DNA of 64,000 bases, taken from the NCBI GenBank assembly GCA_031275405.1, contig JAISOV010000018.1:1-64000 (forward strand). The letters are read 5' to 3'. A model generated the notes under the pieces. The model had not been told where the DNA came from. It saw nothing but the letters and a program-made list of their open reading frames with translations, and ran no database searches. The translations under genes were made by a program, and so were the position numbers. This document shows, piece by piece, positions 10,668 through 54,080 of the stretch. Source of the DNA: Clostridium sp. (GTDB lineage Bacteria; Bacillota; Clostridia; Lachnospirales; Lachnospiraceae). Each line of letters opens with the position of its first letter. The first letter of the stretch is position 1.

Positions 10668-12530
10668 ATGAAGACCGTCGATCTGCACGTTCATTCCGTC
10701 TGTTCGGACGGCAGTCTGTCGCCCACGGAACTGGTAGACTATAGCATCCAAAAAGGCCTGGCGGCCTTTGCCCTCACCGACCATGACACCGTCGCCGGGC
10801 TGGATGAGGCTCTGGCCTACGCCGCCGGACTGCGCGGAAAGGGCGTCGCCGCCCCCGAAGTCATCCCGGGTATCGAGCTGTCCACGCAGTACGGGGACAG
10901 GAGAGGCCGTGCCCATGACCCGGTCTGCGGCGGAGGCCAGGCCGGCGCTGACAGCCATGCCCGCACCCATGACCCGCTCTGCGGCGGAGGCCAGGCCGAC
11001 GCTGACAGCCATGCCCGCACCCATGACCCCGCCCGCGGCGAAAGCCAGGCCGGCGCTGACAGCCATGCCCAGGCTTCCGCCGCCGTGAAAGACATCCACA
11101 TCCTTGGGCTGTTCCTGGATTACCGTTCCCCCGCTTTCCGGAAGCAGCTGGAAGAAGTCGCTCTTTCCCGAATCCAACGCAACCTCAAGATGTGCCGCCT
11201 GCTCCGGTCGGCAGGGCTGGACGTCGCTTATGAAAAGCTGACGGAAGCCTATCCGGACAGCGTGATCACCCGCGCCCACTACGCAAAATACATGCTGGGC
11301 CAAGGTTACATCCGCACGATCCGGGAAGCCTTTGAACGCTACATCGGCGAAGGCTGCCCCTGCTACGTTCCCCGGGAAAAGGTCACTTCCGCCCAGGCCA
11401 TCCGGATCATCCTGGAAGCGGACGGGATCCCCGTCCTTGCTCATCCTTTCCTCTACCATCTCACCGATCCCGAACTGGAGTCCATGGTCGGGCAGCTGGC
11501 GGAAGACGGGCTGCTCGGCATAGAAGCCGTCTACAGCTCCCATACCCCGGCGCAGGAACGCCAGATCCGCAGCCTTGCGGAAAGACAGTCCCTGCTTGTC
11601 AGCGGCGGCTCCGATTTCCACGGCGCCCTCAAGAAAGGACTGGATCTGGGCGTAGGCTACGGCGGGCTTGCCGTCGGGGAAAACGTCCTGGAAACGCTCC
11701 GCGCTTCCAAGCTGCACAGGATCCTGTTTACGGATCTGGACGGCACGTTATTAAAGGACGGCGGCGAAATCAGCCCAGCCCTGAAAGAAGCTCTTGACCG
11801 GATGACCCGGAAAGGCCATCATCTGGTGCTTGCCTCCGGCAGACCCCTCCACAGCATCCTGGAGATCCGTGAGAAGCTGGGGCTGACCTATCCCGGAATG
11901 CTGGTCGTCTCCTACAACGGCGCGCTGGTCTGGCACTGCGATACCAAAAAGAAACTGGTAGATCTGCGGCTCCGCGCCGAAGACATGCGTCACATCCTCG
12001 GAGAGGCCCGCAAGCAGGGCCTGCACATCCATGCCTATTCGGACGCGGAAACGATCTGCTCCAGCCGTTACAGCGACCGCGACGTGATCGACTACTATAG
12101 CAGCCGGATCCGCCTGCCTTTCCGCTTCGTGGAGGACATCCCCGCCGCCCTGCCCCAAGGCTCCCACAAGCTGCTTGCCGTCCATCTGACAGACCGCCGG
12201 CGTCTGGAGACGTTCCGGGCTTCCCTGCTGCCCTATTGCGAAGGGCGTATCCAGCTGCTTTTCTCCAGCGAACGTTTCCTGGAAATCCTCCCCGCCGCCG
12301 CCGGAAAAGGGCAGGCTCTGCAAGCGGTACGCCGCTTCCTGCGTATCCCGCCCTCCCACACTTACGCCGCCGGGGACGCCGAAAACGACATATCCATGCT
12401 GGACGCCGCCCATATAGGCATCGCCATGCAAAACGCCCCCGCCCCAGTCCGGGAACACGCCCGGCTGGTCACGGAAAAGGATCATAACCACGACGGGCTG
12501 CTGGAGGTCGTGGAGAAATATTTCCTGTAG
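10668..12530 (+). CDS. PHP-domain phosphoesterase fused to Cof-type HAD phosphatase
   Basis: N-terminal DLHVHSVCSDGSLSP / FALTDHDTV; C-terminal FTDLDGTLLKDGG ... YAAGDAENDISML. Confidence 0.9.
   Translation: MKTVDLHVHSVCSDGSLSPTELVDYSIQKGLAAFALTDHDTVAGLDEALAYAAGLRGKGVAAPEVIPGIELSTQYGDRRGRAHDPVCGGGQAGADSHARTHDPLCGGGQADADSHARTHDPARGESQAGADSHAQASAAVKDIHILGLFLDYRSPAFRKQLEEVALSRIQRNLKMCRLLRSAGLDVAYEKLTEAYPDSVITRAHYAKYMLGQGYIRTIREAFERYIGEGCPCYVPREKVTSAQAIRIILEADGIPVLAHPFLYHLTDPELESMVGQLAEDGLLGIEAVYSSHTPAQERQIRSLAERQSLLVSGGSDFHGALKKGLDLGVGYGGLAVGENVLETLRASKLHRILFTDLDGTLLKDGGEISPALKEALDRMTRKGHHLVLASGRPLHSILEIREKLGLTYPGMLVVSYNGALVWHCDTKKKLVDLRLRAEDMRHILGEARKQGLHIHAYSDAETICSSRYSDRDVIDYYSSRIRLPFRFVEDIPAALPQGSHKLLAVHLTDRRRLETFRASLLPYCEGRIQLLFSSERFLEILPAAAGKGQALQAVRRFLRIPPSHTYAAGDAENDISMLDAAHIGIAMQNAPAPVREHARLVTEKDHNHDGLLEVVEKYFL
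10908..11069 (+). repeat. 54-bp tandem repeat x3 inside the PHP domain (18-aa units)
   Basis: RAHDPVCGGGQAGADSHA / RTHDPLCGGGQADADSHA / RTHDPARGESQAGADSHA. Confidence 0.95.
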
Positions 12531-14222: not shown

Positions 14223-14528
14223 ATGAAATTGGCAACCAAAACAATAACCGTTCGAGTGGACGAAGACACCAAGCAGCGAGCAGAGGTCATCTGAAAAGAT
14301 ATGGGCTTGAATGTCACAGGATGATTTAACGCTTGCCTGAAGGCCGTGGTACGAGAAAAGCGCGTGCCGTTTGCCTTAGTCAGCAGCGAATATGAGCTGG
14401 ATCAAATGATTAAGGTCAAACTGGAAGAATCGGAAGCCGTAGCAAACGATCCGACTGCCAAGCGTTACACGCATGAGGAGATTTTCACACCGCTAAGAAA
14501 GCAGTATGGCTATGAGTTGCAGGATTGA
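14223..14528 (+). pseudogene. RelB/DinJ-family antitoxin with two in-frame TGA codons
   Basis: MKLATKTITVRVDEDTKQRAEVI*KDMGLNVTG*FNACLKAVVREKRVPFALVSSEYELDQ...; TGA at 14292 and 14322; no toxin ORF follows. Confidence 0.8.
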
Positions 14529-14537
14529 GTATATCAC

Positions 14538-14625
14538 TTATCGGAAGCCGCGCAGCGGCCTCCGATAAAAGGCGCTGGTCCCGCGCCGCAATTGGATTAC
14601 AGGAAGCGGTCTTGCTTCCTGTAAT
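14538..14625. repeat. Three-hairpin dispersed element, copy A
   Basis: Stems TTATCGGAAGCCGC/GCGGCCTCCGATAA, GGCGC/GCGCC, ATTACAGGAAGC/GCTTCCTGTAAT. Confidence 0.85.
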
Positions 14626-15307
14626 AGACATTCGTCTGGAAGCTGCGCAGCAGCTGTCCGTCCTTGCTTTCCCAGTCAAAAACGGCGTTCATCTCATCGA
14701 TAAAACCCGCGTATTCCGGCGAAGCCGGACGCGGCGAGCCGGAATGAGAGAGCATGAACGCCAGCCAGTCCTCACGGCTGTAATACCTGGGGTTGGGGAA
14801 TACGGCGCGTTCCATACCGCCGCCGAAAAAACGGCGGATGTTTTCCTCGCGGCGAATCACCTCCGCTTCATGAACCCTGTTGGCGCGGTCTAAATCGCGG
14901 TTATACAGGATGACGACCCGTCCGCCCGGACGCAGGATCCGTCCGCATTCCGCCCGGAACGCTTCCGGATCGAACCAGTGAAAAGCCTGGGCGCATAGAA
15001 CCGTATCCACGCTGCCCCGTTCCAGCGTGGTATGTTCCGCGCTTCCCTCCACGGCCCGCGCGTTCGGATAGGAAGCAAGCAGCCGAACAAGCTTCGTCCG
15101 CATATCGGCGTTCGGCTCGACGGCGTAGACCGTGCTGCCGCGTCTCGCGAGCAGCTCGGTCAGCTTCCCCGTCCCCGCCCCGATGTCGGCAAGCACCGCT
15201 CCCCGCGGCGCCAGTTCGTCATACAGGAAAGAAACCGCTTCGGCGGCATAACCCGGACGGGCTTTCGCGTAATTCTCCGCCAGTCCGGTAAATTTTTCCA
15301 AGTTCAT
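14597..15307 (-). CDS. SAM-dependent class I methyltransferase (ORF can extend to 15469 through the 18-bp repeat)
   Basis: NLEKFTGLAENYAKARPGYAAEAV...VLADIGAGTGKLTELLA...VLCAQAFHWFDPEAF. Confidence 0.9.
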   Translation of the reverse strand: MNLEKFTGLAENYAKARPGYAAEAVSFLYDELAPRGAVLADIGAGTGKLTELLARRGSTVYAVEPNADMRTKLVRLLASYPNARAVEGSAEHTTLERGSVDTVLCAQAFHWFDPEAFRAECGRILRPGGRVVILYNRDLDRANRVHEAEVIRREENIRRFFGGGMERAVFPNPRYYSREDWLAFMLSHSGSPRPASPEYAGFIDEMNAVFDWESKDGQLLRSFQTNVYYRKQDRFL

Positions 15308-15308
15308 A

Positions 15309-15470
15309 TTTCCCACGGCTCCCACATTTCCGACGGCTCCCACATTGCTCACGGCTCCCACATTGCTCACGGTTCCCACATTTCCGACGGCTCCCACATT
15401 GCTCACGGCTCCCACATTTCCCACGGCTCCCACATTTCCGACGGCTCCCACATTTCCCACAGTTCCCATT
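15309..15470. repeat. 18-bp minisatellite x9 at the junction of two genes
   Basis: Units TTTCCCACGGCTCCCACA / TTTCCGACGGCTCCCACA / TTGCTCACGGCTCCCACA. Confidence 0.97.
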
Positions 15471-15762
15471 GATATTTCTCCATCTCTACGCGTCCGTCCT
15501 CGGTAAAACCCACGCCCTCGCCCTCCAGCAGGATCCTCTGGGTGTCCACGCCGCCGAACGCAAAGGCGCGACTACAGCAGCCGAGCCGGTTCACCACCCG
15601 ATGGCAGGGGATCGCGGCGGGGTCGGGGTTGACGTGCAGGGCATAGCCGACCACCCTTGCCCAGCGCGGATGGCCCGCAAGAACGGCGATCTGTCCGTAG
15701 GTCGCGACCTTGCCGCACGGAATCTGACGCACCACCTGGTAGACCTGTTCAAAAGCATTCAT
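15403..15762 (-). CDS. MGMT-family (O6-alkylguanine-DNA alkyltransferase-like) protein with repeat-encoded tail
   Basis: FEQVYQVVRQIPCGKVATYGQIA...PAAIPCHRVVNRLG; tail WELWEMWEPSEMWEPWEMWEP. Confidence 0.9.
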   Translation of the reverse strand: MNAFEQVYQVVRQIPCGKVATYGQIAVLAGHPRWARVVGYALHVNPDPAAIPCHRVVNRLGCCSRAFAFGGVDTQRILLEGEGVGFTEDGRVEMEKYQWELWEMWEPSEMWEPWEMWEP

Positions 15763-20948: not shown

Positions 20949-21031
20949 GACGGAAAAAATATAGACGGCAAGATACGATACCGGATTCTCCGGATATTCC
21001 ATCTTATTTCTTGCCTTCCCCTATCTTCTTC

Positions 21032-21173
21032 CATCCAGACTTTTACTGTTGGTTCCGGATTTTCACCGGATCAGCCGTCTGTATGCCGGTACGCCATGAC
21101 CCTGCGCCGACCACAGACGGGTTGCGGACTGTTCTCACCGCCAGTAGGGATTTGCACCCGTCCCCGAAGATTC
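21032..21173 (-). ncRNA. FMN riboswitch (RFN element)
   Basis: Minus strand AATCTTCGGGGACGGGTGCAAATCCCTACTGGCGGT ... CGGAACCAACAGTAAAAGTCTGGATGG. Confidence 0.95.
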
Positions 21174-21221
21174 TCTTCTTCCTCTTGCCGGAAGCCGCTT
21201 CGCAGCTTCCGGTTAAGCTGT

Positions 21222-21250: not shown

Positions 21251-21268
21251 TACCGTTTTCAACAATTT

Positions 21269-21782
21269 ACTGCTTCCAGACGGCTACTGTTTTCAGACGG
21301 CTGCCGCTTCCAACGGTTGACTGCTTCCGGACGGCTGCCGCTTCTAACGGTTACTGCTTCCGGACGGCTGCCGCCTCCAACGGTTGACTGCTTCCGGACG
21401 GCTGCCGCTTCCAACGGTTGACTGCTTCCAGCCAGCCGCCGCCTCCAACGGTTGACTGCTTCCGGACGGCTGCCGCCGCCAACGGTCACTGCTTCCAGTC
21501 GGCTGCCGCCGCCAACGGCTACTGCTTCCGGACGGCTGCCGCCTCCAACGGTTGACTGCTTCCAGCCAGCCGCCGCCTCCAACGGTTGACTGCTTCCAGT
21601 CGGCTGCCGCCGCCAACGGTCACTGCTTCCAGTCGGCTGCCGCCGCCAACGGTCACTGCTTCCAGTCGGCTGCCGCCGTCAACGGTCACTGCTTCCAGTC
21701 GGCTGCCGCCGCCAACGGTCACTGCTTCCAGTCGGCTGCCGCCGTCAACGGTCACTGCTTCCAACGGTTGACTGCTTCCAGC
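21269..21782. repeat. 33/34-bp minisatellite, about 13 full units plus partial units
   Basis: CTGCTTCC(GGA/AGT/AGC)CGGCTGCCGCCxCCAACGGT(CA/TGA) tandemly repeated between tex and the ribU promoter. Confidence 0.96.
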
Positions 21783-25777: not shown

Positions 25778-25794
25778 GCAGGGCAGCATATCAC

Positions 25795-25895
25795 TTCCCG
25801 GAAGCTGCGGAGCAGCTTTCGGGAACAGGCGCTGTCCTTCGCCGTGAACCGATTACGTGAACCGATTATCAGAAACTGTCCTCGCTTTCCGTAAT
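25795..25895. repeat. Three-hairpin dispersed element, copy C (diverged)
   Basis: TTCCCGGAAGCTGCGGAGCAGCTTTCGGGAA, GGCG..CGCC, ATTATCAGAAACTGTCCTCGCTTTCCGTAAT. Confidence 0.6.
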
Positions 25896-25949
25896 ATCAT
25901 GGCTGAATGCAACATCACGCGGAAAGAAGGAACCTCGAACAGGAGTACA

Positions 25950-53422: not shown

Positions 53423-53514
53423 TTTCCTGAAATCGGGAAAAGCAGGGATCTCCCATATCTTTTCTGTGTTCCGCCGCGTATATCCCTGCCTGTCCCTTTC
53501 ACGGCTCATAGGAC

Positions 53515-53603
53515 TTATCGGAAGCTGCCAGCGGCTTCCGATAAAAGGCGCGGCCCTATGCGCCGCAGTTCGATTGCAGGAAGCTGTTCCTGCTTCTTGT
53601 AAT
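53515..53603. repeat. Three-hairpin dispersed element, copy B
   Basis: TTATCGGAAGCTGCCAGCGGCTTCCGATAA, GGCGC/GCGCC, ATTGCAGGAAGC/GCTTCTTGTAAT. Confidence 0.85.
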
Positions 53604-54080
53604 GTAAGCTTCCACCCCGTCCCGGGGGATTTCCAGGGCCACGGCCAGCTCGCCGTAGAGATTCTCCTCCGCCATTTTGAAATATTTGGCATCTACGGCG
53701 GTCACTTTCCTGCCTGCCTGGATACGTTTCTGCTTCCGCTCAAAAATCGTCTTGATGATCTTGACCCACGCCTCGCACCGGTTGCTCTTCATGCACACCC
53801 GGTACTCCTGCTCCAGCATTTTTTCATTCGTGATGGTGATCAGCGGAATCTGCGGGATCCCCCGGATCAGCTCGTCCGCTTCTTCTCTGGTCAGCACGTT
53901 TCTCATGGACTCCTGCGCGGCGTCCACCGGGATATAGACCGTGCTGGCGGCCACATAAAGCGGTTTGAGGATATAATATTCCCGCTCCCTGTCCACGCCC
54001 GGCATATTCAACGTCGTAATGTCCTCAATGCTGCACACGCCCTTGCTTCCGCAGATCACACGATCCTTTTTCTTGAACAC
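53556..54080 (-). CDS. CarD-family transcriptional regulator
   Basis: MFKKKDRVICGSKGVCSIEDITTL...YYILKPLYVAASTVYIPVD. Confidence 0.88.
   Translation of the reverse strand: MFKKKDRVICGSKGVCSIEDITTLNMPGVDREREYYILKPLYVAASTVYIPVDAAQESMRNVLTREEADELIRGIPQIPLITITNEKMLEQEYRVCMKSNRCEAWVKIIKTIFERKQKRIQAGRKVTAVDAKYFKMAEENLYGELAVALEIPRDGVEAYITRSRNSFLQSNCGA

Follow-up and report, generated by a model that had tools for sequence, protein, structure and literature searches.

What is a block of three consecutive hairpins doing at the very end of a methyltransferase gene, and how did it come to be there? The locus belongs to a Clostridium sp. of the Lachnospiraceae, a dominant family of the gut, and lies in a stretch of 64,000 nucleotides, here called the window. 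An earlier note, made from the letters alone, had described a dispersed three-hairpin element and thought of a terminator or a 3'-UTR stabiliser. Families of short bacterial repeats, BOX, ERIC and REP among them, were described decades ago, but for only a few is it clear how they are mobilised. Our analysis suggests that the feature is probably one member of a family of non-autonomous mobile elements of ~93 bp, which insert 3' of TATAATA with a one-sided target and by a logic like that of IS200/IS605.

The three-hairpin unit and its copies

Copy A is a complete three-hairpin unit at 14537-14626 on the + strand (96.7 bits with covariance model R1; 87.6 bits, E 2.2e-13, with model R2). The earlier boundaries, 14538-14625, were close; the unit begins one base earlier and finishes one base later. 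In the predicted fold the three stem-loops described before are recovered. Hairpin 1 (14538-14568, +) has a 14-bp stem with one A-C mismatch and a 3-nt loop, hairpin 2 (14571-14587, +) pairs GGCGC with GCGCC, and hairpin 3 (14596-14625, +) is the perfect stem already noticed, of 12-13 bp. The 3' arm of hairpin 3 is the target-mimicking right end of the unit and reads TGTAATA here. The left flank (14528-14536, +), AGTATATCA, is a degenerate version of the TATAATA(TAR) flank that is found left of most copies. Compared with shuffled sequences, copy A folds at -48.2 kcal/mol (z -6.9) on the + strand and at -52.2 kcal/mol (z -7.4) on the - strand. On the latter the middle hairpin (14587-14571) is followed by TTTTATCGGA; the TTTTAT there is terminator-like and includes the four T reported earlier.

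The gene is an ORF for a SAM-dependent methyltransferase (14597-15469, -; Methyltransf_11, E 4.1e-20). Its C-terminus, ...YYRKQDRFL*, is encoded through hairpin 3, with the TAA stop at 14599-14597 of the - strand, and the overlap seen before is thereby confirmed. Further upstream an MGMT-like gene (15403-15762, -) overlaps the methyltransferase gene, and an 18/54-bp tandem repeat occupies 15308-15468; it is translated in both frames, as GNVGAV repeats and as EMWEPWEMWEP.

A second complete unit, copy B, lies at 53514-53604 (+; 89.6 bits with R1, 76.8 bits with R2). The strong similarity to 53515-53603 pointed out earlier amounts to 84% identity (E 3.5e-18). The C-terminus (YITRSRNSFLQSNCGA) and the stop of a CarD-like gene (ORF 53556-54080, -; CarD_TRCF_RID, E 6.9e-11) are encoded through hairpins 3 and 2 of this copy. 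A third copy at 25794-25896 (+; R2 53.1 bits, E 1.9e-7) is decayed; its hairpin 1 still pairs, and hairpin 3 carries a 13-bp tandem duplication (25843-25868).

The host genome is a 2.98-Mb draft of 59 contigs, 84% complete, with the window on contig C12. BLAST found 41 pieces in it with copy A as query and 66 with the consensus. The covariance-model search of the genome that had been proposed was run with R1, built from 29 copies, and revealed ~45 near-complete copies. Many stand head to tail: arrays with a period of 93-94 bp are present on C5, C8, C14, C23, C38, C40 and C52. Hairpin 3 alone is also found in tandem, with a 40-bp period and 5.5 repeats at C34:2-224 (L071 1-230) and a ~37-bp period on C23 (L072 region). 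Several contigs terminate in copies of the repeat, since repeats of such kind are expected to break assemblies.

Tandem repeats of other sequence occur as well. The whole 64-kb window yields 28 rows of them, among them a 33-bp array of ~15 copies (21268-21781) adjoining an FMN riboswitch (21019-21175, -) and a 54-bp in-frame repeat (10912-11070) within a gene for a PHP-domain/HAD-hydrolase fusion (10668-12530, +). The host genome seems prone to tandem duplication.

Conserved architecture and the folded strand

The unit of ~93 bp has a constant order: a linker (TAG, GAG or TAA), hairpin 1 with CTTATC, AAAAG, hairpin 2, GTnAATCTG, and hairpin 3 ending in ...TAATA. Unpaired letters are conserved at the joints, AAAAG between hairpins 1 and 2 and GTnAATCTGA between hairpins 2 and 3, and AAAAGG ahead of hairpin 2 is kept in nearly all units. 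Covariation was measured on a MAFFT alignment of the 53 sequences from 21 genomes that make up model R2. Standard pairs account for 94.3% in the three helices, as against 39-49% after sliding one side by 1-3 columns. Changes on both sides that maintain pairing occur in 27 of the 31 pairs (helix 1: 94.1% paired, 12 of 14 pairs compensatory; helix 2: 100%, 4 of 5; helix 3: 92.2%, 11 of 12), and none of 500 shuffles reached any of these measures. The hairpins are therefore real. A lack of further copies and of covariation had been named as the outcome that would speak against a dispersed element of conserved structure; dozens of genomic copies and very strong covariation were found.

With each genome and column counted once, G-U pairs outnumber A-C oppositions by 54 to 14, and still by 30 to 13 once the two columns that dominate the count are removed. 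This excess shows that the + strand, as RNA or as single-stranded DNA, is the folded one. At the right end, TAATA pairs inside hairpin 3 and covaries with the 5' arm (GATTACAAG/CTTGTAATA to GATGACAAG/CTTGTCATA); it is therefore the element's own sequence and not a duplicated target.

Insertion sites and the explanations for spread

Empty sites were sought with the joined flanks of the copies in genome G387 among the congeners G422, G423, G075, G421 and G424. The clearest case is locus L180, ahead of a gene named asp23 from its translation. All five congeners have one TATAATA ahead of the leader, and G387 reads TATAATA[GAG-unit-TATAATA]GATTATT, the empty form being TATAATA, junction, r. Four further G387 loci (L172, L175, L178, L182) are likewise empty in congeners, at greater divergence, and for L183 there is an apparent decayed orthologue in G422. 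In Lachnoclostridium phytofermentans the unit at L158 and L159 is absent from the counterparts in G801. One intergenic site with flanks ~90% identical carries clearly different subfamilies of the unit in two Lachnoclostridium species, G151 (L157) and G801 (L304), differing by compensatory changes in hairpins 2 and 3, which suggests re-insertion or replacement. A 63-bp tandem repeat is present at the G387 contig ends C2:16924-17103 and C41:6-116, flanking copy L184.

The left flank has the consensus TATAATATAR, with 0.4-0.9 bit at each position from -8 to -4. On the right only T at +1 is informative (0.47 bit), and beyond it the letters are near background. Target recognition is one-sided, on the 5' side only. 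The last three letters of the left consensus are taken as derived from the element, because they are specific to the lineage (GAG in G387, TAT in G220, TAG in G170 and G218) and because the same letters precede the first unit and separate the units of a tandem array. The position of the junction is ambiguous within 5-9 bp, and a short duplication of the target may be present at some copies.

An alternative is a MITE of the classical type. A DDE transposase would move it, its terminal inverted repeats would be imperfect, and TA or 5 bp of the target would be duplicated. The outer stems of hairpins 1 and 3 do resemble each other as inverted repeats (TTATCrGAAG on the left, TTAyAGGAAG inverted on the right), imperfectly, and TA or short duplications stand on both sides of some copies (TATAA at L153 and L159, TAGAG at L172). 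We nevertheless regard this origin as unlikely: the target preference is one-sided, the right-end TAATA covaries with its partner in hairpin 3 and so belongs to the element, and the letters on the two sides are mostly unlike beyond TA(T). A duplication agrees with part of the copies only; a fixed length of 5 bp was rejected, as it suits L153, L159 and L172 and fails at L175, L178 and L180.

The mobile element proposed here would enter intergenic DNA as a whole unit, directly 3' of a TATAATA-like sequence. Hairpin 3 would restore TATAATA(T) with its 3' arm, leaving a fresh target at the right end; since every insertion renews the target, the head-to-tail arrays are accounted for. We infer that the top strand would fold as single-stranded DNA and that an enzyme acting in trans, either a single-strand (HUH-like) or a site-specific recombinase, would read hairpins 1 and 3 together with the TATAATA core. 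The insertion signature fits site-specific recombination of a circular unit equally well. Arrays may also expand and contract by slippage or recombination. A partial next unit closes ~10-15% of arrays, which is unexpected under clean cut-and-paste and counts against a mobile element; unrelated tandem repeats are abundant, so that arrays could come from slippage alone. From the partial last units and the repeat-rich genome it follows that slippage, or events left incomplete, play a part as well.

A further point against mobility is that no mobilising enzyme was found, Y1 having been searched in nine carrier genomes. Y1_Tnp (PF01797) is absent from six of them, including the genome of the window (84% complete), G220 and G176 (99%), and the Y1 genes of the other three have no unit within 1.5 kb. 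A Y1/IS200 mobiliser was rejected accordingly, being missing in most carriers, unlinked, and different in its ends where these were compared. A transposase between closely spaced inverted copies in L. phytofermentans (C3:986.9-988.9 kb) was also considered and dropped, as the ORF translations there, judged by reading, are unlike a transposase. Reverse transcription with a + strand RNA was rejected too: the 5' end is constant and the 3' end variable, whereas target-primed reverse transcription would give the reverse, and only a minority have partial tails.

The target resembles a -10 box. TATAAT, matching at least five of six letters, sits 4 nt upstream of the unit at 51 of 117 left flanks. An excess of -35 sequences is weak (8 of 52 at 17-nt spacing, about 3 at other spacings), and therefore not every target is a promoter. 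The repeat might accordingly be read as a cis-regulatory RNA, its + strand transcribed from the adjacent -10 box, which ends 4 nt before the unit, into a three-hairpin 5' leader that stabilises or regulates the mRNA and has spread through its usefulness. The folded strand is the right one for this, and some copies do form leaders with promoter-like sequence upstream, clearly so at L180 (asp23), L026, L174 and L018 (TTGACA-N17-TAGTAT). Against it, the unit shows no bias of orientation to gene starts (30 on the right, 27 on the left), counterpart sites are empty in congeners, and a non-systematic look at the neighbours revealed no visible functional theme; we think it improbable that usefulness as a leader explains the spread. 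Under the mobile-element explanation regulation would be a side effect and not the cause of spread, some copies (e.g. at asp23) becoming 5' leaders through the overlap of target and -10 box. A more speculative version, to which we give little credence, is that a single-stranded-DNA transposon targets the transcription bubble. The folded 93-nt top strand would be inserted just downstream of the melted non-template -10 strand (TATAATA); the promoter would stay intact, the element would become a transcribed leader, and the -10 box would be regenerated, so that units stack in series.

The gene context was counted for 85 copies or arrays with greedy ORF calls of at least 100 aa, and the numbers are approximate. 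Intergenic positions account for 74 of the 85 (19% expected, p 2e-41), gene ends to the right and left for 21 and 20, and the neighbours are convergent in 10 of 77 cases and divergent in 20. Symmetric orientation and intergenic placement argue against a general role as terminator or leader and for a tolerated mobile passenger. A terminator or 3'-UTR element, in which hairpin 2 of the - strand with its TTTTAT ends upstream genes, is thus very unlikely, even though copy A has the terminator-like match, AAAAGG before hairpin 2 is so widely kept, and each of the two full copies in the window is found where a - strand gene ends. The stem has only 5 bp and is followed by only four T, the - strand has A-C mismatches opposite the G-U pairs of the + strand, and gene ends show neither a consistent orientation nor a convergent excess, for which the class of intrinsic terminators was rejected. 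As a general role, the function suggested by the earlier note is not supported; at copy A itself, hairpin 2 of the - strand, ~10 nt past the methyltransferase stop, could by its sequence act as an incidental weak terminator. Finally, near-perfect palindromes, frequent tandem arrays and a repeat-rich genome would suit template-switch (quasipalindrome) correction of the arms in replication, with spread by slippage or recombination only, but the asymmetry of G-U over A-C and the scatter of copies over unlinked sites whose counterparts are empty, which slippage could not produce, make this scarcely credible.

Distribution and comparison with known systems

Plain BLAST in 60 relatives gave no match, and the exact pattern of the host genome had none in other species. 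With model R1, an identical architecture was found in eight other genera of Lachnospiraceae among 397 genomes of the family; these relatives are mostly multicopy and maintain the ~93-bp unit and its period, with diverged letters. An exact hairpin-1 pattern, relaxed relative to that of the own genome, detected 51 loci in ~20 GTDB species, mostly labelled Lachnospiraceae, including L. phytofermentans KNHs2131 (an isolate; G151), a MAG labelled [Clostridium] symbiosum, RUG006 and SIG329. R2 matched in 11 of the 397 family genomes and in none of 390 further class-level genomes, some of these also Lachnospiraceae. As far as tested, the distribution is patchy and limited to Lachnospiraceae. Carriage by phages or viruses was rejected, as two patterns found no match in the IMG/VR viral contigs.

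The possibility of an Rfam family had been raised as well. In Rfam 15 the whole window matched only the FMN riboswitch, located elsewhere, copy A had merely two sub-threshold matches at E≤10, and 12 loci from other genera gave none above the gathering score. With nothing above the curated gathering score, membership of any Rfam 15 RNA family was rejected. The literature searched held no paper on this repeat and no such repeat for Lachnospiraceae.

Since both the target and the unit are defined, empty sites are available and one carrier, L. phytofermentans KNHs2131, is in culture, the mechanism can be tested directly. Insertion at -10 boxes would be a natural way for genes to acquire structured leaders, and variable arrays are candidate markers for strain typing.

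The repeat is a new one of a known kind, the small non-autonomous bacterial interspersed repeat (BOX, REP, ERIC), and fits no tested family definition. Like the repeat, BOX of Streptococcus pneumoniae consists of small modular intergenic hairpin repeats with tandem modules in variable number, has no known transposase of its own and is parasitic-looking in distribution (PMC3049150); in the repeat, the arrays of hairpin 3 alone on C34 and C23 are the counterpart of the tandem modules. BOX is reported with terminal inverted repeats and target-site duplications (PMC3049150); by description the repeat is set apart by another host family and unit length, a one-sided TATAATA, and the repetition of the whole 93-bp unit. 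The STAR elements of staphylococci, in the part of the description seen, are likewise interspersed intergenic direct repeats in Firmicutes (PMC3532100).

REP/REPIN elements with RAYT (TnpA-REP) share a strand-specific hairpin beside a short 5' tag, the intergenic position and the lack of an own gene (PMC8266576, PMC3733652, PMC3116915), and (A/G)TAG stands directly 5' of hairpin 1 in several carrier genera. They are, however, palindromes of 20-40 bp, and the repeat is a three-hairpin unit in a single orientation. Instead of the inverted pairing of REPIN/BIME, its arrays run head to tail with a 93-94-bp period; no Y1 (HUH) gene is flanked by it, PF01797 being confined to three of the nine carriers; and instead of a conserved GTAG the tag is ATAG, GTAG, AGAG, ATAA, AGAA or ATAT by lineage.

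The ends of IS200/IS605 elements come close in logic. Inverted repeats are not required, top-strand hairpins lie near both ends, insertion occurs 3' of a specific short sequence, and the right end resembles the target; the repeat, too, has a one-sided target at its 5' junction that is mimicked by its own right end. No autonomous IS with matching ends was found: in L. phytofermentans KNHs2131 the IS200 copies differ in their ends and are flanked on the left by T-rich sequence, and the Y1 element ends in G208 and G218 were checked for R1 matches only. In contrast to the guide and cleavage layout of IS608 (PMC8266576), hairpin 1 begins at the left junction and the right-end core lies within the stem of hairpin 3. 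Membership of IS200/IS605 fails because Y1 is missing in most carriers, the IS200 ends differ and the hairpins abut the junctions. The 93-bp three-hairpin head-to-tail unit and its targeting of TATAATA set this repeat apart from those compared here.
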